Below, piece by piece: positions 11,129-62,421 of a stretch of 64,000 nt of DNA (positions are counted from its first letter, which is position 1; each line of letters begins with the position of its first letter). The translations under genes and the position numbers were made by a program. This DNA comes from a virus, in IMG/VR virus record IMGVR_UViG_3300035670_011573, positions 1 to 64,000 of that record; one strand, written 5' to 3'. The notes under the pieces are model-generated. The model saw only the letters and a list, made by a program, of their open reading frames with translations. It had not been told where the DNA came from and searched no databases.

Positions 11129-12268
11129 TTATTTAATTCTCATATTTTTAAGCATATCTTGAGCTCTAAGATTCCAAGAATTATTTTTAATTGTAATTTT
11201 TGATATATTTTCTTTGTCAAATTGTCTTTTTGAAATAACCTTGATTGCATCAGTATATTCCCTTATATTGCATATATTTTCAACTATAATTCCGGCATTA
11301 GCTTTTTTTATTAAATCTGTATTACCAGTGCTAATTTCTGTAATGACGGGAAGTCCTACTGTTAAATATTCTAAAAGTTTAGCATTGCCTGCCGAACTTT
11401 TATTTTTAGACCATGATGGTGATAAATCTATTCCCAAGTCTGAATTAATTAAATAGTTCCAATGCTCACCCCATGATACTGGCTTATGAACTGTAATATT
11501 TTTTGATTTTGAAAAATATTTTTTTAACCACTGAAGATTATCAGAAACCTCTGGCCCAAATTTATTTTTTCCATTTAGATTTAATTTATCCAGCATTTCG
11601 GGCGGCTTTGCAAAACTACCTGGTAATATATTTAAATGATACTCTTCTGAAAAATTATTCATTACATCAATTAAAAAAGGCATTTTAGATGGAGAATGCA
11701 TCATTCTGCCCATATAAATTAAGTTATGCTTTCTTTTTAAGAATGGCGCATCTTTTAAATTATCTTTTACATATTCTGTGCCCATTTCTGAATAAAAAAC
11801 CTTTTGCTGTGGATCACCATTAACTTTTTTCATAGAATTCATAAAACCTATTTCTTGACAAAAAAAGAAGTCAGCTGCTTTATATATATAATCAAAAGAA
11901 AACTTTGATTTACTAATCCAATTATGTGTCGCGTGTTTAATTACCAGCAAAGTCTTTGTTTTTATACCTGCTGCTTTCTTATCCATTAGATTCTTAAGCG
12001 GCTTTATCGAATCAATAACTTTTTCTATTGCTAGGTCTAGTCCTAATATTATTATATCAAAACTTTCTAATAATTCAAAATCTATTTTGGAATAAGGCAT
12101 CATCTGTATATTATGTATTTTATCTAGTTGCAATCTTGAAACATAAAAAACTTCATGGCCTAAATTAGAAAATCCTTTTGCCAATCCAAAAGATTTATAT
12201 ATACTATAATGTATTTTGAATTCATTTTCAAAAGGTGAGGCTGTATTTCCTGCAATTAATATTTTCAT
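11129..12268 (-). CDS. Glycosyltransferase, GT-B fold
   Basis: About 379 aa from the ATG at 12268, which overlaps the upstream methyltransferase stop as ATGA. A TTG four codons earlier (12280) is possible but less likely. The N-terminal strand MKILIAGNTASPFENEF starts an acceptor domain. The donor domain shows LIYMGRMMHSPSKMPFLI (~190) and SWSKNKSSAGNAKLLEYLTVGLPVIT (around residues 278-303), a GT4-like donor site in which the first Glu is replaced. NLIYMG and VTVHKP fit the hinge and strands. Substrate unknown. The altered signature could mean an unusual donor or reduced activity. Confidence 0.72.
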   Translation of the reverse strand: MKILIAGNTASPFENEFKIHYSIYKSFGLAKGFSNLGHEVFYVSRLQLDKIHNIQMMPYSKIDFELLESFDIIILGLDLAIEKVIDSIKPLKNLMDKKAAGIKTKTLLVIKHATHNWISKSKFSFDYIYKAADFFFCQEIGFMNSMKKVNGDPQQKVFYSEMGTEYVKDNLKDAPFLKRKHNLIYMGRMMHSPSKMPFLIDVMNNFSEEYHLNILPGSFAKPPEMLDKLNLNGKNKFGPEVSDNLQWLKKYFSKSKNITVHKPVSWGEHWNYLINSDLGIDLSPSWSKNKSSAGNAKLLEYLTVGLPVITEISTGNTDLIKKANAGIIVENICNIREYTDAIKVISKRQFDKENISKITIKNNSWNLRAQDMLKNMRIK

Positions 12269-12753
12269 TTTTTTACACAATAATAGATTGACTGTTGTGG
12301 TGGTAAAACCAAATCTTTCTTAAGAACTTCTATTTTATAATCATTTATAAATAATTTTTCAAATGAATCAAAACTTTTATTTAGACATGAAAAAATGAAA
12401 TGATTGAAATTTTTTTGTATATATAAGTTGAAACTTTTTTTATCATCTATGTATTCTAATAGTCCAAGAAAAAGTCCTAACCCTGGATCTTCAATATTAG
12501 GCCTATCTATATTTAAATCAACTAAAATTGTTAAATCTGTATGTTTAATACTATCAAACCCAAAATATTTTATATCTTTATTTATAAAGTTAACAATGTT
12601 TGAGTCACCACAACCAAAATCATATAGATATTCTGGATTTACTTCGTTTATTTTTTTTGCTGCCGTCATCATTCTTTCTGACCAATCTAAACCTTTGTTA
12701 GCTGGATAATCCTTAAGTAATTTGCAGCCTTTTTCCGCCCATCTATTTGCCAT
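12265..12753 (-). CDS. Small SAM-dependent methyltransferase-like protein
   Basis: 162 aa. Motif I is YLYDFGCGDSNIVNFI (residues ~41-56), strand 2 ends in YFGFDSI (~64), and there is a second acidic strand, LTILVDLN. The C-terminal half is short for the family and ends in SIYYCVKK, resembling the antiparallel strand pair closing class I folds. It is compact but plausibly complete. It is coupled by ATGA to the glycosyltransferase downstream, so glycan methylation is the natural inference. Target residue and sugar are unknown. Confidence 0.68.
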   Translation of the reverse strand: MANRWAEKGCKLLKDYPANKGLDWSERMMTAAKKINEVNPEYLYDFGCGDSNIVNFINKDIKYFGFDSIKHTDLTILVDLNIDRPNIEDPGLGLFLGLLEYIDDKKSFNLYIQKNFNHFIFSCLNKSFDSFEKLFINDYKIEVLKKDLVLPPQQSIYYCVKK

Positions 12754-55086: not shown

Positions 55087-56856
55087 CTATCTTGCAGTGA
55101 GAGTACCGCTGATTGAATTAATTAAAAGATCAATTTTACTTATCAATACGTTCATAACATCTGTTGTGCCATCAACTGCGGTTGCTGCTGCAGAACCAAA
55201 TTGGGTTTGTCTAATCTTATTAAATAAATCATCAAATTCTTGTCTAAGTTCTTCAAAAAATTCATCGATATTACCTGCTGCAGTTTTAATTTTATCGAAG
55301 ACTTCTTCACCAAGCTCATTAAAATCAACAATTGGTTGATTACCATAACCCCTATTAAATTCGGTAATGTCACCCCGAAATCTATCAACCCCCTCTCTCT
55401 GCATCCTTCCTACCAATGCTGCCAAAGTATCCGCACTTAATCGGACACCCTCTGTAAACTTTTTGTTTAATAATTGTAACTCAACATAGGTTGAAGCAGT
55501 AGAGGCAGCAGTTTTTTCTTCATATGATGTGGTTTGATTTCTAGCAGAGATTATTTCCTGTAAGTCTGTCCCCAAGGACTCTGCCAAAGATTGGTCACCA
55601 CTTTTATTAGCTTCGTTTAATTTTTCTAACAACTCCAAAGTTCTATCTTGTGTTGCGGTATCTGTTATTTTATAAATGTCACTTAATAATTGTGTTTGTG
55701 TAAAAAATGCTTGTTGTAGCCTGGGATCCTTATCTGCTTCGGAGACTGTAACTATATTTCCGCCCGCAAATGAAGATAAAGTATTTTTCATTGCATTAGC
55801 TAGATCCATCGCTAGTTCTGATTGGTCACCACCCTCTGCTAGTCTAGCCCTCAAACCAATGCTGGCACCCAATGCGCCCTGTCCAGAGCCAATATCTAAT
55901 CCACCTCTTTGAAAAGTTAAATAAGCGGCAGAATAATTAGATGACAAACCCACCAAAGAATTGCTTAATGTTGTTGACAAGCTTAAAGCATTTTCCATAC
56001 CCAAGCCCATATCTTCTAAACTATCTGCAAAGCCTTCTAATGCTGGACGACCAAAGCTAGCATTTACACCTAGCTTACTGAGGTTGCTAGCAAAACTATC
56101 TAAATTATCTGCTATTTTACTTACCTTAAGACCTGTATCTGCTGATATATCACCAAACATAGCCATTTGCTCTACAGCATCTTGTGCTGATAATCCCTGG
56201 ACCATCATGGCACTAGATAAGCCTTTCATATAATCAGTTAAAGTCATCCCCAAAGAACTAGAATGTAAAAATGCTGTATTTAAAAGATCCATACTTCCTG
56301 CTGCGGAAGTTATTGTTTTGCTCATATTTTCTATAGAAATTCCAGCATCAGCCATTGTCTTTGCAACAGCTACCCTATCTGCTGTTGTAATAAACCCAAA
56401 CTCTGCAGTTGCAAATTGTTGCGCAGAAGTCATTATATAATCGCTATATTTTTTTGCCTCTTCAAAGCCCTTACCAAAGCCTGCTGCATTCTTATACATT
56501 GCCTCGTTTAGATCCCTTGTGTATGCAGTGGCAACATCCATGGCTTTTCCGAAGCTATTTAAAAGCGTAATTGCTTCGCCGCCAACTCCCAATATTGAAC
56601 CAAAAGTTTCGTTAACTTTGTTAAGACCATAGGTAAGCGGACTTAATGCACCAAGTGAAAGCTTGTCGGCAAATGAAGTCATAAGAGATATTGCACCACT
56701 AAGGTTATTATTAACTGCACTAGCAGCCGCCGCAACTTTGTCAAATCCTATACCACCAGAAGCCGCTGCTTTATTTAAGTTATCAAAGGCAGCAATACCA
56801 CTAGCTACAGACTGATTTAGTTTGTTTAGAGCTTGTGTCGCTGAATCTGTTGCCAT
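55087..56856 (-). CDS. Tail tape measure protein
   Basis: 589 aa, Ala/Gly/Ser-rich and almost wholly helical, with FDKVAAAASAVNNNLSGAISLM, YGLNKVNETFGSILGVGGEAI and VAVAKTMADAGISIENMSKTITSAAG patterns usual in tape measures. It follows the frameshifted chaperone by 11 bases, the conserved position. From the rule of about 0.15 nm per residue, the tail would be roughly 90 nm, rather short for a phage with such large baseplate proteins. A short hydrophobic stretch (~60-110) could insert in the membrane. No peptidase or lysozyme domain is seen. Identity is firm from context, moderately from sequence. Confidence 0.8.
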   Translation of the reverse strand: MATDSATQALNKLNQSVASGIAAFDNLNKAAASGGIGFDKVAAAASAVNNNLSGAISLMTSFADKLSLGALSPLTYGLNKVNETFGSILGVGGEAITLLNSFGKAMDVATAYTRDLNEAMYKNAAGFGKGFEEAKKYSDYIMTSAQQFATAEFGFITTADRVAVAKTMADAGISIENMSKTITSAAGSMDLLNTAFLHSSSLGMTLTDYMKGLSSAMMVQGLSAQDAVEQMAMFGDISADTGLKVSKIADNLDSFASNLSKLGVNASFGRPALEGFADSLEDMGLGMENALSLSTTLSNSLVGLSSNYSAAYLTFQRGGLDIGSGQGALGASIGLRARLAEGGDQSELAMDLANAMKNTLSSFAGGNIVTVSEADKDPRLQQAFFTQTQLLSDIYKITDTATQDRTLELLEKLNEANKSGDQSLAESLGTDLQEIISARNQTTSYEEKTAASTASTYVELQLLNKKFTEGVRLSADTLAALVGRMQREGVDRFRGDITEFNRGYGNQPIVDFNELGEEVFDKIKTAAGNIDEFFEELRQEFDDLFNKIRQTQFGSAAATAVDGTTDVMNVLISKIDLLINSISGTLTAR

Positions 56857-56867
56857 AATTCCTCTCC

Positions 56868-57308
56868 CTAAGTATTAAATTTATCTATAGTATTTTTAAT
56901 ACTAGATAAATCAGATGGTAACTTTGCTCTTGATACATCATAATTTTCATTCTGCTTTCCACTTTGCTCTAGCTTTCTCATCCTAATAACTGCATCTAAC
57001 AAGTTGTTATTCTTAAAATCGCCTGTTACGATCGACTTCTCAAACTCAGCGTCATCTTTAAACCTATGGTCTGGTGGACTTTTTCTATATTCTTGAATCT
57101 TTTTAACTGCTTCTGCATTCCAGAATGAAGCAAGATAATCTATTTTTGATAATTGTTCCTCGTGTTCTTGTTTTTTATCTTGATATAATAATTCAGAATA
57201 TAAGACCCATTGATGTATGGTTATATCATCAAAGATAGGATCGTCTATTCTACACTTCCAAAGCTTAGATAATTCCCATCGGAGCCAGATTTCTGGCTCC
57301 TTTATTAG
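56868..57308 (-). CDS. Frameshift extension of the tail assembly chaperone (gpT-like part)
   Basis: An open frame of 146 codons in the -1 frame of the upstream chaperone gene, ending in TAG at 56870-56868. It has no usable start codon or ribosome site of its own. It begins at the slippery site and reads LIKEPEIWLRWELSKLW, then a helical, charged protein rich in Lys, Glu and Asp, ending in SSIKNTIDKFNT. Fused to the first 180 residues it gives a 326 aa product. In lambda (G-GT), P2 (E-E') and many other phages the longer form binds the tape measure while the shorter coats the growing tail. The tape measure follows 11 bases later, exactly as expected. It fills the only apparently empty stretch of the tail block. 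Confidence 0.88.
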   Translation of the reverse strand, partial: LIKEPEIWLRWELSKLWKCRIDDPIFDDITIHQWVLYSELLYQDKKQEHEEQLSKIDYLASFWNAEAVKKIQEYRKSPPDHRFKDDAEFEKSIVTGDFKNNNLLDAVIRMRKLEQSGKQNENYDVSRAKLPSDLSSIKNTIDKFNT

Positions 57309-57314
57309 TTTTTT
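57281..57314 (-). promoter_or_regulatory. Programmed -1 ribosomal frameshift site: slippery heptamer plus hairpin
   Basis: On the minus strand A AAA AAC (57314-57308) lies in frame with the chaperone gene and directly precedes its TAA stop. After a 7-base spacer comes an 8-bp hairpin: GGAGCCAG (57300-57293), loop AAAT, CTGGCTCC (57288-57281). This is the classic X XXY YYZ heptamer with a GC-rich stimulatory stem. Slipping back one base moves the ribosome into the 56868-57308 frame. Confidence 0.9.
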
Positions 57315-57847
57315 GAGTTTTCCTTGATGCCTCCATCATTATATAGACCCATTGATCTTTCGACCATCTTTTCATAATGTTCAAAAATTTTATCTACTAG
57401 CGAGGCTTGAAATTCCATAATAACCTCTACTTTTTGTTCATATTCTGACAGATGTTGCTCGCCAGAGTAAATTTCATTTAGTGACAGACCATTAACTGAT
57501 ACAATTGCCTCAGCTAAAGTATAAGGTTTTATATTAAGAATTCTTTCATCTTGTTCTATCTTCATTAATCTTTTGACTATTTCCTTTTGCTGCCTGCTTG
57601 ATAGTGTTGATATTTTAATTGTTGAATCACCAATAGAAATATCTTCGACCAACTTTCCAAAAAGTGCTAGATTTTTAAACCCAGGGGGAATGGGCTTGTC
57701 TTCTGCTGCCTCATTTTCAAATACTTCCTCGTTAGCTTCACGAACTTTGTTAAGTGCGCCAACAACACCCTGTGGTAAATTACCCATAGCATTCTTAGCT
57801 TTTGTTGCTGTTTGGTGTTCAACTACACCTCGGCCTGTTCTACTCAT
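57305..57847 (-). CDS. Tail assembly chaperone, short form (gpG-like)
   Basis: A 180 aa protein between tail tube and tape measure, the fixed position of tail assembly chaperones. The centre (residues ~55-125) reads FGKLVEDISIGDSTIKISTLSSRQQKEIVKRL and IKPYTLAEAIVSVNGLSL, a pattern I associate with chaperones of contractile-tailed phages. The first 50 residues are polar and Ala-rich; the last 40 form an acidic helix. Some ribosomes slip at 57308 to make the longer form. The start is coupled by ATGA to the HNH-like gene upstream. In lambda gpG the short form outnumbers the long by about 30 to 1; the ratio here is unknown. Confidence 0.85.
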   Translation of the reverse strand: MSRTGRGVVEHQTATKAKNAMGNLPQGVVGALNKVREANEEVFENEAAEDKPIPPGFKNLALFGKLVEDISIGDSTIKISTLSSRQQKEIVKRLMKIEQDERILNIKPYTLAEAIVSVNGLSLNEIYSGEQHLSEYEQKVEVIMEFQASLVDKIFEHYEKMVERSMGLYNDGGIKENSKN

Positions 57848-58455
57848 TTATCACCTCTCTTAATGTTTTCACTAACTTTAATGCACATGGTTATAAATTG
57901 CAAATGCGTTAGATTGCCTTTAAACTTTTGACAATCTATACAACATGATACCAGATTATCAATATTATAACCACCGGAAATATTTATCAACTCCAACCTA
58001 ATTTTTTTTACTTTAGAACTACAATAAAAACAATCTTTGTTCCAAAAGCTATCAAACTCTTCTAACTCAATACTGAATGGCACCTTTTCTTTTTGTGCTT
58101 TTTCTTTATAGATTGCATAACTTCGTGCTGGTTTATAATTATGACATCTTCTGCATTCTGCTCTAAAATAAGGTGGATTGGGAAGTTTTGAAAAATTATC
58201 TAATGTTTTAAACTCACCACATCTTTTACAACTTTTTCCGCCCTCACAATTATATTTTTTTTGTGTATAAGAAGCTCTGCCTGATCCAGCACATTTTCTA
58301 CTGCAATAAACACCCTCTGCATTTCTTCTTATTACATTATATAATGTTCCATATTTAACTTCAAAATCAGAATTACACCAGGTGCATTTGGCAGGAATAA
58401 TTTCTAAATTTTTCCAAATTTCTTTATCATTTTTAAGCTGCTCTAAAGTATACAA
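57844..58455 (-). CDS. HNH-like zinc protein, degenerate nuclease motif
   Basis: 203 aa from a TTG start that has a good AGGAG site 7 bases upstream. It has four Cys pairs: CTWC (~21) with YCSRKC (~50), CKRC (~75) with CRRC (~100), and an HNH-like C-terminus with CFYC (~140) and SCCIDCQKFKG (~180). The C-terminal part has GGYNIDNLVSCC, corresponding to the usual GYxxxNVVxCC of HNH endonucleases. The expected DR before it is EL and the final CN is CQ, so cleavage activity is doubtful. It may be a decayed homing endonuclease beside the tube and chaperone genes, or a retooled DNA-binding protein. Its stop overlaps the chaperone start (ATGA). Confidence 0.75.
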   Translation of the reverse strand: MYTLEQLKNDKEIWKNLEIIPAKCTWCNSDFEVKYGTLYNVIRRNAEGVYCSRKCAGSGRASYTQKKYNCEGGKSCKRCGEFKTLDNFSKLPNPPYFRAECRRCHNYKPARSYAIYKEKAQKEKVPFSIELEEFDSFWNKDCFYCSSKVKKIRLELINISGGYNIDNLVSCCIDCQKFKGNLTHLQFITMCIKVSENIKRGDK

Positions 58456-58540: not shown

Positions 58541-58568
58541 AAAAAACCCCCTAAAGAGGGGGTTTTTA
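58541..58568 (-). terminator. Intrinsic terminator between tail tube and HNH-like gene
   Basis: CCCCCT (58547-58552) and AGGGGG (58557-58562) form a perfect stem with a 4-base loop, flanked by A- and T-runs that add base pairs. On the minus strand the stem is followed by a T-run, so transcripts from the sheath and tube genes would end or be thinned here. The A-run on the other side makes it bidirectional in principle. It probably sets higher expression for sheath and tube than for the genes after it. Confidence 0.9.
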
Positions 58569-58584
58569 TCATTTAAACTTGTGA

Positions 58585-59190
58585 TTAGAATGCAGCGCTA
58601 ATTAGACCAGGGAAGTCTAGGGCACCTCTTCTAGCACCGGAATCTGCCAGTAATTCAACATCATCCAACTGTGTTGGAACCTGTCTACCACCACCAGTAC
58701 CTTGACTCAAGGCTACTGCTTCACCACCGCGGATGGTCCTAACAGTTTCTACTAGTACGTTTGCAGTTTCAGATATTACATAGTTTTCTGAACTGTAAGT
58801 CTTTGATAGAGTCTTGAACCAGCAATTTTGATAAGTGGTAATAACTGCATCATCATCTGTTCCAGTGTATTGATCAATTACTACAATATCAAAAGGTATT
58901 CTTTGTGCCTTTAGATTCTTAAATCCTCTGGAGAAAGCTTCTGGTAAGCTTAATCCATCGAATACAATTCTAGTAATTGTAAGATCTACGTCTGCAGAAG
59001 AATCAGGTACAGCTTCGATAACGCCGTCTGTACCTACTTCACGAATTCTTTTGATCTGTCTATTTTGTGTTTCTTGGAATGACTGAACAGCACCAACAGG
59101 TTCATTATTAACTAGAATAAGAATCTGTGTAGATAATGCTGTTCTGGTAGTTCCATCTAATACAGAGCCAGATTTAGGATAAGTTGCCAT
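58585..59190 (-). CDS. Tail tube protein
   Basis: 201 aa. ILILVNNEPVGAVQSFQETQNRQIKRIREVGTDGVIEAVP is the characteristic first part of contractile tail tubes (T4 gp19, PBSX XkdM). VDLTITRIVFDG and YQNCWFKTLSKTYSSENYVISETANVLVETV are the strands of the tube beta-barrel. Tube proteins are usually 140-200 aa, so the length is normal. It stacks as hexameric rings inside the sheath. Its gene follows the sheath by 12 bases and is closed by the terminator at 58541-58568. AGGAG precedes the ATG. An extra C-terminal tail of ~35 residues (GTGGGRQVPTQ) is Gly-rich. Confidence 0.9.
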   Translation of the reverse strand: MATYPKSGSVLDGTTRTALSTQILILVNNEPVGAVQSFQETQNRQIKRIREVGTDGVIEAVPDSSADVDLTITRIVFDGLSLPEAFSRGFKNLKAQRIPFDIVVIDQYTGTDDDAVITTYQNCWFKTLSKTYSSENYVISETANVLVETVRTIRGGEAVALSQGTGGGRQVPTQLDDVELLADSGARRGALDFPGLISAAF

Positions 59191-59202
59191 TTAATACTCC
59201 TA

Positions 59203-62200
59203 TTATAGGATACCGACTTCAATATCGATAAAGATATAGTTAATTGGATATGCTGGCTGGAATCTCAAATACACATTCCACTGTCTTGGGTCAAGCTTAT
59301 CTCTTTCAACCTTAACATTTTTATAACCAGTAATTAATCCTTGTGAGACTAAGGAAGATAAAATTCCAATAATTCTGGATGTCATTGCACCCTGTGTATT
59401 GTTGTCTTCTACAACGCCAACGAATGCTTTGAGTCCTTGTCTTAGAACTTCTTTAACTCTATCTCTAATGAAGATTATGGAAACTTCCTCATCTTCTACG
59501 AATCCAGACTGGCTAGTAGTCCTACCTGCCAAAACCTGTCCACCACCAACAACTGGCTGTACAACTGTGGCACCAACTGCACCTAGTTGATTTAGAATTA
59601 CAGGGCGGTACTTCTTATCTCTAAGAATTGTGAAGCCTGAAAGAACTTTGTTAGTTAGTGGTATTGCAACGTTTTGTGTAGCAGATAAATAACCAGCGGC
59701 AGCAGCAGCCATATAGAATCCGTCAATAAAGGTGTTTGCACCCTGAATGGATCTTACTACCTGATCTGGATAGAAATAGACGGCTCTATTGCTGGTGTAG
59801 TTATCACTAAGCTTGTAGTTTTGTAGATCTTCAGTATTTCCATCAAGAACTTCTTCTGGATCGTCGCCCTGAATACCTTCTAGAATGCCAATGTCTTCTA
59901 CTGCAACTTCTTCTAATCCAATAAGAGCCTGAGGTGTTACGCCTTGTTGTGCGCCAAACATTGTAACTCTTTCTTTTTGGATTGCAATAGTGCTCATGGT
60001 TTCTACGTGCTGAATTGCAGCGCGGAAAATTCCACCCCTATTTTGTAGTGGTAATGGAACTACAATCTGGCACTCTTCTGCTTCTAGAGCCTCAAATGCT
60101 TCAAACCAATTTGTATCAAAGAAATCTGCATCAACTTCATCAACATAAGAAATCTTAATTCCATCGCCAGACTTTAAAGTTCCGCTAGATACTAAATCTT
60201 TGTGGAAAAGTACTGCGGCTCTTTTGTTGGTAACATCACTCTCATCTTTGATAAAGAATTGCATTTCGGTAGCGCTGTTTGTAAGGCTGGTTGATAAACC
60301 ATCATTAGCAACAACAATAACAGTTTGGTCATCCACAATATCAGTGATTATCAATTCTATACCTACGGTGGTAGAGCCAAATAGTGCAAGGCTAATATCG
60401 TCTGACTTAGTCTTTAAAGAACCAAAAGAATCTTTAAGGCTCTGGACAACTATAATCTTGCCTACGTCTGTACCATCAAAATTTACCTCTGAACTGGTAA
60501 AAGTTTCTGATGAAGCAGCCACACTGCCAGCAAATCCTTGGCCAATAATCTTGGTATCTGTATTGATTATAGTGTAAGAGAATGGATAGGATGGATTTGA
60601 TATAAACTGTGCTTGTCCAGTTGGGCTTTCAATTTGTGAATTGTAAAACTCTACCTTATTTGGGAAGATTTGTGTTTCAACACCCTTTCTGACAACAAAG
60701 AAGTTAACTTGCGAATCGCTTTGTGGTCTTGCTTTTTGTAATCCAGATAGGGGCCTTGGAATTATAAAAGTAAGATCATCTGGTTCACAGTTTGCTGCGT
60801 TGCCACCGCAGGCCTTAAATCCACCTTGACCATTAGAATTTGCTTCTTGAACTAAGAAGGCAGTTGTTCTTCTTGGAATTGGTGGCTTGCACTGTAAGGC
60901 TAGAACATAAGGTGCTTGGTTCTCAAAGCAAAGTCTAGCGCCAAGTGATAAGGTATTTTTAACACTCTCTTGACCATGCTTTTTAGCAAGCTCTTGTGCG
61001 CTGACAAAAAGTTCTGGATCGTTAATATCACTTTCTGCAATATACTTAACTTCTAGTCTATCATTCTTTTTTAGTACTCGGGATTTTACATCGATAAAGA
61101 ATTTATCGCCAACTTCAAATGGAACATTTCCTGCTTTAATTCCAAAGACTAAAACACCATTGGTTTCTAGCATATGGAACTCTAGATCTTTTTCACCTAA
61201 GCCATCTGCATCATCATCAACTAGGTTAGGGAATCCAACATTTGGCTCGCCTAATTTGCTAACTCTTAATCTTCTAGAAGAAGTTACTTTATCTACTCTG
61301 TAGAATCCAGAAAGTCCAGGTGTGTCACCGCCACAAATTGCTAAAACCTTTCCAAGATCGGAACTTGAAAAAGCGCCAGCAGTTGCAGGGGCACCAGTTA
61401 TACCGTTATGTACTACGCTGGGATCATCAATAAATAAATTCTTTGCTCTAATCTCCCAGGCTACATTGAGTGCATCGTAAGAAAAACTATCAGTTACCAA
61501 GGTTAAGGTTGTGGTATCAGTTCCTAAGTCATAATCGATATCTTCAATTTCAATTCCGGTATATCCATCTGCACAAAGAAAATCACCAGGAACTACCTGG
61601 CCTTGTGTTATAAGATCGCCGTCGAACTTAAAGTATCTGGTAGTAAGTGGTGTAGCATCACCACTTAAAACAACCGAGTTACCTAAACCAAAGTCATCGC
61701 TAGTAGCTACAACAAAGCCGTCTTGGCAGACATCTTCATTTCCTGAAACCGCACCCTTGATGCTAGTATAGTAAGAATCATGAAATAAAATTGGTTGACC
61801 ACCTGATGTAGTTATTTGTCCTGATACAGAGCCAGATAATGTAAAAGTAGTTTGGCCAGGAATTGGATCGCCGTTAGAATCTCTGATAACAGAGACTGCT
61901 CTAAGTGTCCATCTTTCTGGTGGTGCGTTTTGATCTAAGATTGAGATAAGATTTACGCTGCCACAGATGCCATCTGGTAAGTAACCATTTCCAACGTTGA
62001 TGCTACTAGCAGACCACTTCTTTCCATCTTGATCACCTATACTAGCGCCCTGAAGTTCAAGGCATCCGGTATCTGGATCAAGCCTAAAATCAAATTGACC
62101 ATCAAATGGTAGTCCATCTAATTCTGCTTCAATACCTCTAAGTGAGGAACCGTTTAAAAATACTTCGGTTCTTCCGCTTATAATTGGTGAAAATTGTAAG

Positions 62201-62421
62201 CTAAAGAATCTACCTGCTGGATTTCCATCGGGACTGCAATCTGGATTGCCATCTCGACCATTACCTATAGCTGCTTCAACGACAGTCTCTTCTCTAAGAC
62301 CTTCACCCATAATGCAGGGAATTCTTAATCCGCCCGGGATTGTTACGCCCCGAGAGATTACTCGATCCCTAGCAAATACGCCAGGTTGTACATATCCTGA
62401 TATTCCTGGGATGTTAGCCAT
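59203..62421 (-). CDS. Contractile tail sheath protein, extended
   Basis: 1072 aa. The C-terminal ~190 residues are a standard sheath domain: TFIDGFYMAAAAAGYLSATQNVAIPLTNKVLSGF, VSIIFIRDRVKEVLRQGLKAFVGVVEDNNTQGAM, NVKVERDKLDPRQWNVYLRFQPAYPINYIFIDIEV. The N-terminal GYVQPGVFARDRVISRGVTIPGGLRIPCIMGEG is the sheath start. T4 gp18 has 659 residues and XkdK about 470, so about 400-600 are inserted in the middle, rich in beta strands (FKFDGDLITQGQVVPGDFLC, VFGIKAGNVPFEVGDKFFIDV). They would point outwards on the tail. GGAGG precedes the ATG. The 63-base gap upstream is AT-rich, and I see no clear promoter there. Confidence 0.93.
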   Translation of the reverse strand: MANIPGISGYVQPGVFARDRVISRGVTIPGGLRIPCIMGEGLREETVVEAAIGNGRDGNPDCSPDGNPAGRFFSLQFSPIISGRTEVFLNGSSLRGIEAELDGLPFDGQFDFRLDPDTGCLELQGASIGDQDGKKWSASSINVGNGYLPDGICGSVNLISILDQNAPPERWTLRAVSVIRDSNGDPIPGQTTFTLSGSVSGQITTSGGQPILFHDSYYTSIKGAVSGNEDVCQDGFVVATSDDFGLGNSVVLSGDATPLTTRYFKFDGDLITQGQVVPGDFLCADGYTGIEIEDIDYDLGTDTTTLTLVTDSFSYDALNVAWEIRAKNLFIDDPSVVHNGITGAPATAGAFSSSDLGKVLAICGGDTPGLSGFYRVDKVTSSRRLRVSKLGEPNVGFPNLVDDDADGLGEKDLEFHMLETNGVLVFGIKAGNVPFEVGDKFFIDVKSRVLKKNDRLEVKYIAESDINDPELFVSAQELAKKHGQESVKNTLSLGARLCFENQAPYVLALQCKPPIPRRTTAFLVQEANSNGQGGFKACGGNAANCEPDDLTFIIPRPLSGLQKARPQSDSQVNFFVVRKGVETQIFPNKVEFYNSQIESPTGQAQFISNPSYPFSYTIINTDTKIIGQGFAGSVAASSETFTSSEVNFDGTDVGKIIVVQSLKDSFGSLKTKSDDISLALFGSTTVGIELIITDIVDDQTVIVVANDGLSTSLTNSATEMQFFIKDESDVTNKRAAVLFHKDLVSSGTLKSGDGIKISYVDEVDADFFDTNWFEAFEALEAEECQIVVPLPLQNRGGIFRAAIQHVETMSTIAIQKERVTMFGAQQGVTPQALIGLEEVAVEDIGILEGIQGDDPEEVLDGNTEDLQNYKLSDNYTSNRAVYFYPDQVVRSIQGANTFIDGFYMAAAAAGYLSATQNVAIPLTNKVLSGFTILRDKKYRPVILNQLGAVGATVVQPVVGGGQVLAGRTTSQSGFVEDEEVSIIFIRDRVKEVLRQGLKAFVGVVEDNNTQGAMTSRIIGILSSLVSQGLITGYKNVKVERDKLDPRQWNVYLRFQPAYPINYIFIDIEVGIL

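Follow-up and report, generated by a model that had tools for sequence, protein, structure and literature searches.

The frameshift in phage tail-chaperone genes is reportedly conserved, as described by Xu, Hendrix and Duda in 2004. The slip site of phage lambda differs from the one described here. As at our locus, lambda gpG and gpGT are short and long forms produced by a -1 shift near the end of a gene that lies between those for the tail tube and the tape measure (PMC5009743); in contrast to lambda, the tail of the phage studied here is contractile. Closer still is Bacillus phage G, in which gp181/gp182 are already annotated as a two-piece join, i.e., as a frameshifted chaperone. The window, a 64,000-nucleotide stretch of an IMG/VR virus record (IMGVR_UViG_3300035670_011573), contains a locus that we read in the same way: with a probability of about 0.96, a programmed -1 frameshift yields a short and a long tail assembly chaperone of the G/GT type. 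The features concerned, all on the minus strand, are:

57305..57847 (-): G-like tail assembly chaperone, short form, 180 aa, 0 frame, stop included (ORF, profile homology to phage G gp181, PHROG matches of relatives, and fold)
57308..57314 (-): slippery heptamer A AAA AAC, in phase; a canonical heptamer is present in 78/78 evaluable relatives
57305..57307 (-): 0-frame stop TAA, abutting the heptamer; a position at 0 or 3 nt is kept across the family
57301..57307 (-): spacer between heptamer and hairpin, 7 nt, stop included
57281..57300 (-): predicted stimulatory hairpin, 8 bp (GGAGCCAG/CTGGCTCC) with a 4-nt loop
56867..57308 (-): T-like extension in the -1 frame, 146 codons plus stop, predicted to be made only as a fusion (dN/dS and homology to gp182)
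55087..56856 (-): probable tape measure protein, 589 aa (weak Pfam TMP_3 match, E 7e-4, below cut-off; a long ORF occurs here in all relatives)
58585..59190 (-): tail tube protein, 201 aa (PHROG 985, virion structural protein; 32% identity to phage G gp180)
59203..62421 (-): tail sheath, 1072 aa (Pfam Phage_sheath_1C above cut-off; PHROG tail sheath)

The gene for the short form ends in the phase TCA AAA AAC TAA TAA, with zero gap between heptamer and stop and a second in-frame TAA immediately following. The first-pass annotation had placed A AAA AAC directly before this stop, followed by a 7-base spacer and an 8-bp hairpin, and these details proved exact: on the minus strand the heptamer lies at 57314-57308, the spacer at 57307-57301 and the hairpin at 57300-57281; the stem is perfect, its loop is AAAT, and the region folds with a minimum free energy of -17.2 kcal/mol (z -2.8 relative to dinucleotide shuffles). 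The -1 frame is open from CTA (57308) for 146 codons, up to a stop at 56869-56867, and it lacks a plausible usual start because the first ATG/GTG/TTG is found only at codon 103, in agreement with the earlier description of an open frame without a start of its own. The interval then assigned to the cassette, 57281-57847, covers the G half and the hairpin but falls short of the extension, which continues to 56867. About 440 bases in these genomes that look intergenic, and that had been noted as empty to ORF callers, are coding, which corrects their annotation. The tape-measure ORF starts 10 nt past the stop of the extension, and the tube gene is situated upstream of G, with an HNH ORF also lying between the two.

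This HNH (endonuclease VII-like) ORF (57844-58455, minus strand, 203 aa, TTG start) shares an ATGA overlap with the chaperone start, is present at the same place only in L016, L017 and L018, the nearest clade to the window, and looks like a homing endonuclease insertion. There is also a strong terminator-like hairpin just past the tail tube gene (58542-58567, minus strand; 11 pairs, then T-rich), and transcription of the chaperone and tape measure may therefore be lower than that of the tube, or start at a different promoter. Further upstream, the tail sheath (59203-62421, minus strand) is unusually long for such a protein: its recognised domain is C-terminal and is preceded by several hundred extra residues.

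Under the frameshift reading, a single mRNA would give rise to two tail assembly chaperones. Most ribosomes would follow the G frame to TAA and release the 180-aa short form, and some, slowed by the hairpin, would shift one base backwards at A AAA AAC and translate 146 codons more, producing a G-T fusion of 326 residues with the junction ...ENSKN-LIKEPEIW.... If the two forms act as they do in phage lambda, the tape measure protein would be coated by the G domain, and tail tube subunits would be brought in by the T domain (PMC5009743). Support for this reading comes from sequence, structure prediction and gene order. At that level we can show a slip site that is conserved even as its heptamer turns over, two halves that are both under purifying selection, an RNA structure beyond what coding needs, the gene order and the chaperone homology; cellular slippage, the rate at which it happens and what each form does are inferred.

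The heptamer alone carries little meaning, since AAAAAAC occurs in the AT-rich window about as often as chance predicts (40 copies vs 37.8 expected). In a control set of 322 ORFs drawn from the window and related loci, a canonical heptamer of whatever type preceded the stop by 0 or 3 nt in just five, only one of which also had a long open -1 frame. That control case, near 12265, was rejected as a slip-and-stop site: it is an ATGA gene overlap in which the second gene has its own ATG. The sequence there (AAAAAAATGA, window 12255-12285, minus strand), where the ATG of a 378-codon ORF shares bases with the stop of a 162-aa ORF, is a mimic of a slip-and-stop arrangement.

Searches of viral contigs with the extension as query returned 12 true relatives, and an alignment of these led to 80 loci; with the 180-aa half alone as query, no relatives were found in viral contigs. 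Two candidates (L014 and L015) were rejected as chance matches inside an unrelated protein. The relatives were recovered by means of peptide patterns; as one of these overlaps or adjoins the 3' arm of the stem, it could enrich for conserved sequence there, but not for heptamers. Two of the 80 loci are cut off at a contig end, and the -1 offset, together with a canonical heptamer 0 or 3 nt before the 0-frame stop, was present in all 78 evaluable ones. After removal of near-identical sequences and addition of the window and phage G, 52 non-redundant sites remained, whose heptamers are AAAAAAA (28 sites), TTTAAAA (12), AAAAAAC (9), AAAAAAG (2) and TTTAAAG (1). On a tree built without the RNA-element columns, the exact heptamer changes at least 11 times and the heptamer class four times, with zero losses. 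Three relatives (L041, L044 and L063) carry TTTAAAAAAATAR, which forms two overlapping canonical slip heptamers at once; it is plausibly an intermediate between the AAAAAAA and TTTAAAA types, showing how a slip site could move by one codon.

Transcriptional slippage on the A run, as opposed to ribosomal slippage, would suit the runs of six or seven A present at many sites, but 13 of the 52 sites (TTTAAAA or TTTAAAG) have just three or four consecutive A, and both hairpin and heptamer phase are conserved, as ribosomal slippage predicts; we regard the transcriptional route as extremely unlikely. A sequencing error or broken pseudogene could mimic a frameshift, and the join does fall at a homopolymer. 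This explanation is refuted by the relatives, in which the same offset recurs at 52 non-redundant sites from many samples and with five heptamers, as well as by purifying selection on both halves, and its probability is negligible.

Alternatively, the two halves could be separate genes, in which case translation of the extension would begin at a non-standard codon such as the in-frame AUC at 57290 behind AAGGAG. An AAAGGAG indeed stands 6 nt upstream of this in-frame ATC, and some relatives have an ATG, GTG or TTG early in the extension. Against this, codons 1-20 contain none of these starts in 36 of the 52 sites, no start position is common to the family across the sites compared, and the putative Shine-Dalgarno sequence is buried in the hairpin. 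Independent initiation would also not require a heptamer and a -1 offset, yet these never fail. Homologues lacking the heptamer and possessing an independent start, which the first-pass annotation had named as evidence to the contrary, did not turn up among the relatives: none is without the heptamer and no start is conserved. Initiation of the extension as a second gene is thus very unlikely, and we retain the frameshift reading.

The downstream RNA structure is selected beyond what coding needs. When the -1 frame peptide was kept and synonymous codons were drawn by local usage, 41 of the 52 sites folded more stably than 95% of their recodings (mean z -3.2), and the window hairpin (z -4.3) was matched or beaten by none of 300 synonymous recodings of the same peptide. 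Thirty-seven sites share a common stem register, and two other clades, of 7 and 4 sites, place their stems on different codons. In the common register, 28 cells changed on both sides, compared to 15.5 after shuffling (0/500), and 75.5% of cells were paired, compared to 30-53% when the register was slid, such that both paired cells and covariation exceeded all shuffles and all slid versions. By the synonymous and stem tests, the hairpin is weak or absent in a few members (L022, L063 and phage G).

The stem is followed by T-rich DNA on the plus strand, as would befit a transcription terminator for that strand in place of a frameshift stimulator. The T-rich stretch arises because the complement of the heptamer is TTTTTT, and TTTAAAA members keep the stem without a long plus-strand T run; moreover, the surrounding structural genes are on the minus strand, and G-U wobble pairs occur in 31 cells on the coding strand vs 4 on the other. 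A role as plus-strand terminator is accordingly given hardly any weight beside that of a frameshift stimulator. Upstream of the heptamer, Shine-Dalgarno-like pairing is stronger than elsewhere in the gene, but it does not exceed what synonymous codons would provide (mean z -0.36; 3/52 sites). An upstream stimulator, as in dnaX, is therefore not supported as part of the signal by the synonymous-codon test. Such stimulators are optional in -1 frameshift elements, and their absence is not disqualifying.

Both the G and the T halves are conserved as protein. For the T half, dN/dS is 0.08-0.32 where synonymous sites are unsaturated, the value for the window extension against its nearest relatives being about 0.2, and both halves are under purifying selection. 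At 51/51 loci G has the tube gene on its upstream side, and a long ORF resembling a tape measure gene follows in all of them. Members of the G half match PHROG 2792 (16/50) and PHROG 2992 (14/50), both of which are named tail assembly chaperone. The two halves of the window itself gave no convincing Pfam or PHROG match, so that their identification rests on relatives and synteny; a sequence search of the PDB likewise gave no match, nor did tblastn of either half against named phages. Phage G was reached via its tube protein, and the only named relative of the extension found by sequence is its gp182: in profile alignments (hhalign), gp181 aligns with the G half at E 2.4e-16 and gp182 with the extension at E 2.9e-11. 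In the AlphaFold models of the two halves, the cores are predicted with confidence. The modelled G half resembles gp181 (target TM 0.82) and further phage chaperones in fold, with a weak match to the HK97 chaperone 2ob9 (E 0.16), and the top match of the T-half model is gp182 (E 2.2e-3). Synteny, the PHROG matches of relatives and homology to gp181/gp182 together confirm the predicted chaperone identity, and with it the original assignment to the G/GT strategy.

Two weak matches to the phage G extension were rejected since the arrangement is absent from both: TmpB of Staphylococcus phage Twort, which has no canonical heptamer, and an unverified fecal scaffold, in which a canonical heptamer stands 27 nt before the stop. 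In Twort (L096, 2950-3050), similarity to the phage G extension starts 39 nt upstream of the annotated TmpB start, and this start may therefore be wrong, or a different recoding may be involved.

The least expected feature of the family is the stop at the slip site, which may set slippage and termination in competition. It is located 0 or 3 nt past the heptamer at all sites and is never lost on the tree, even as its identity changes at least 11 times and all three stop codons occur among the 52 sites; the isoleucine codon overlapping the stop is ATA in 39/39 cases vs 458/1074 (43%) elsewhere, both the stop and the ATA counts being inflated by the relatedness of the sites. Without this stop, G would extend 1 to 54 codons further. 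Turnover of identity without loss and the exclusive use of ATA suggest, as a hypothesis, that the stop itself is kept, either because it works in the slip or merely because it ends the short form cleanly. In a bacterial system, frameshifting fell when a stop took the place of the HIV intercodon and was abolished by additional release factor (PMC4373837); a stop after the slip site would thus be expected to compete with slippage. That the stop is a working part of the signal, with slippage occurring partly while it occupies the A site and in competition with release factor, is a tentative and rather doubtful proposal. If true, the ratio of short to long chaperone would be determined both by how fast termination proceeds and by the hairpin. 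The always-adjacent stop makes this family a natural test bed for the disputed slippage that follows translocation, with the next codon in the A site, and the 52 naturally occurring variants, which span five heptamers, three stem registers and all three stop codons, can serve for testing which parts of a bacterial -1 signal matter.

The initial suggestion that heptamer, spacer and stem are close to ideal, and efficiency possibly high, is not supported, given that A_AAA_AAC is weak in Escherichia coli, where A_AAA_AAG is much shiftier on the ribosomes (PMC5009743), and that a stop is adjacent. Efficiency is not readable from the sequence, as it would depend on the host and on the tRNAs that it has for lysine and asparagine; a search of a genome collection for a host or prophage found none.

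Compared to known systems, the locus is most similar to that of Bacillus phage G, whose gp181 and gp182 are homologous to the two halves, lie between tube and tape measure, and are annotated as a join; phage G also has A AAA AAC TAG, again with the stop abutting the heptamer. The two differ in that the phage G extension is 252 aa long rather than 146, its stem is just 5 bp by the stem test, its tube is 32% identical to that of the window, and its tape measure is far larger. In the SEA-PHAGES training set slip site and stop are on average 26 nt apart (PMC10885494), as against 0 or 3 nt in the window family. The chaperones of Vandenendeviridae and Andersonviridae (phage Adele, 2025), likened here by description, also belong to contractile tails and have a conserved -1 frameshift, for which the same comparative argument was made; there too the -1 frame runs uninterrupted through a region that annotations give as intergenic or hypothetical, but their slip motif is GTTTTT (PMC12846349). 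A stop codon directly past the slip heptamer is also known from Rous sarcoma virus and barley yellow dwarf virus (PMC4373837), which are eukaryotic viruses with unrelated genes. The locus thus represents a new, well-supported family of a known kind (G/GT), one member of which, phage G, was already annotated, and through it a large, diverse set of mostly uncultured, contractile-tailed phages, including contigs of >300 kb, joins the known frameshifted tail chaperones.
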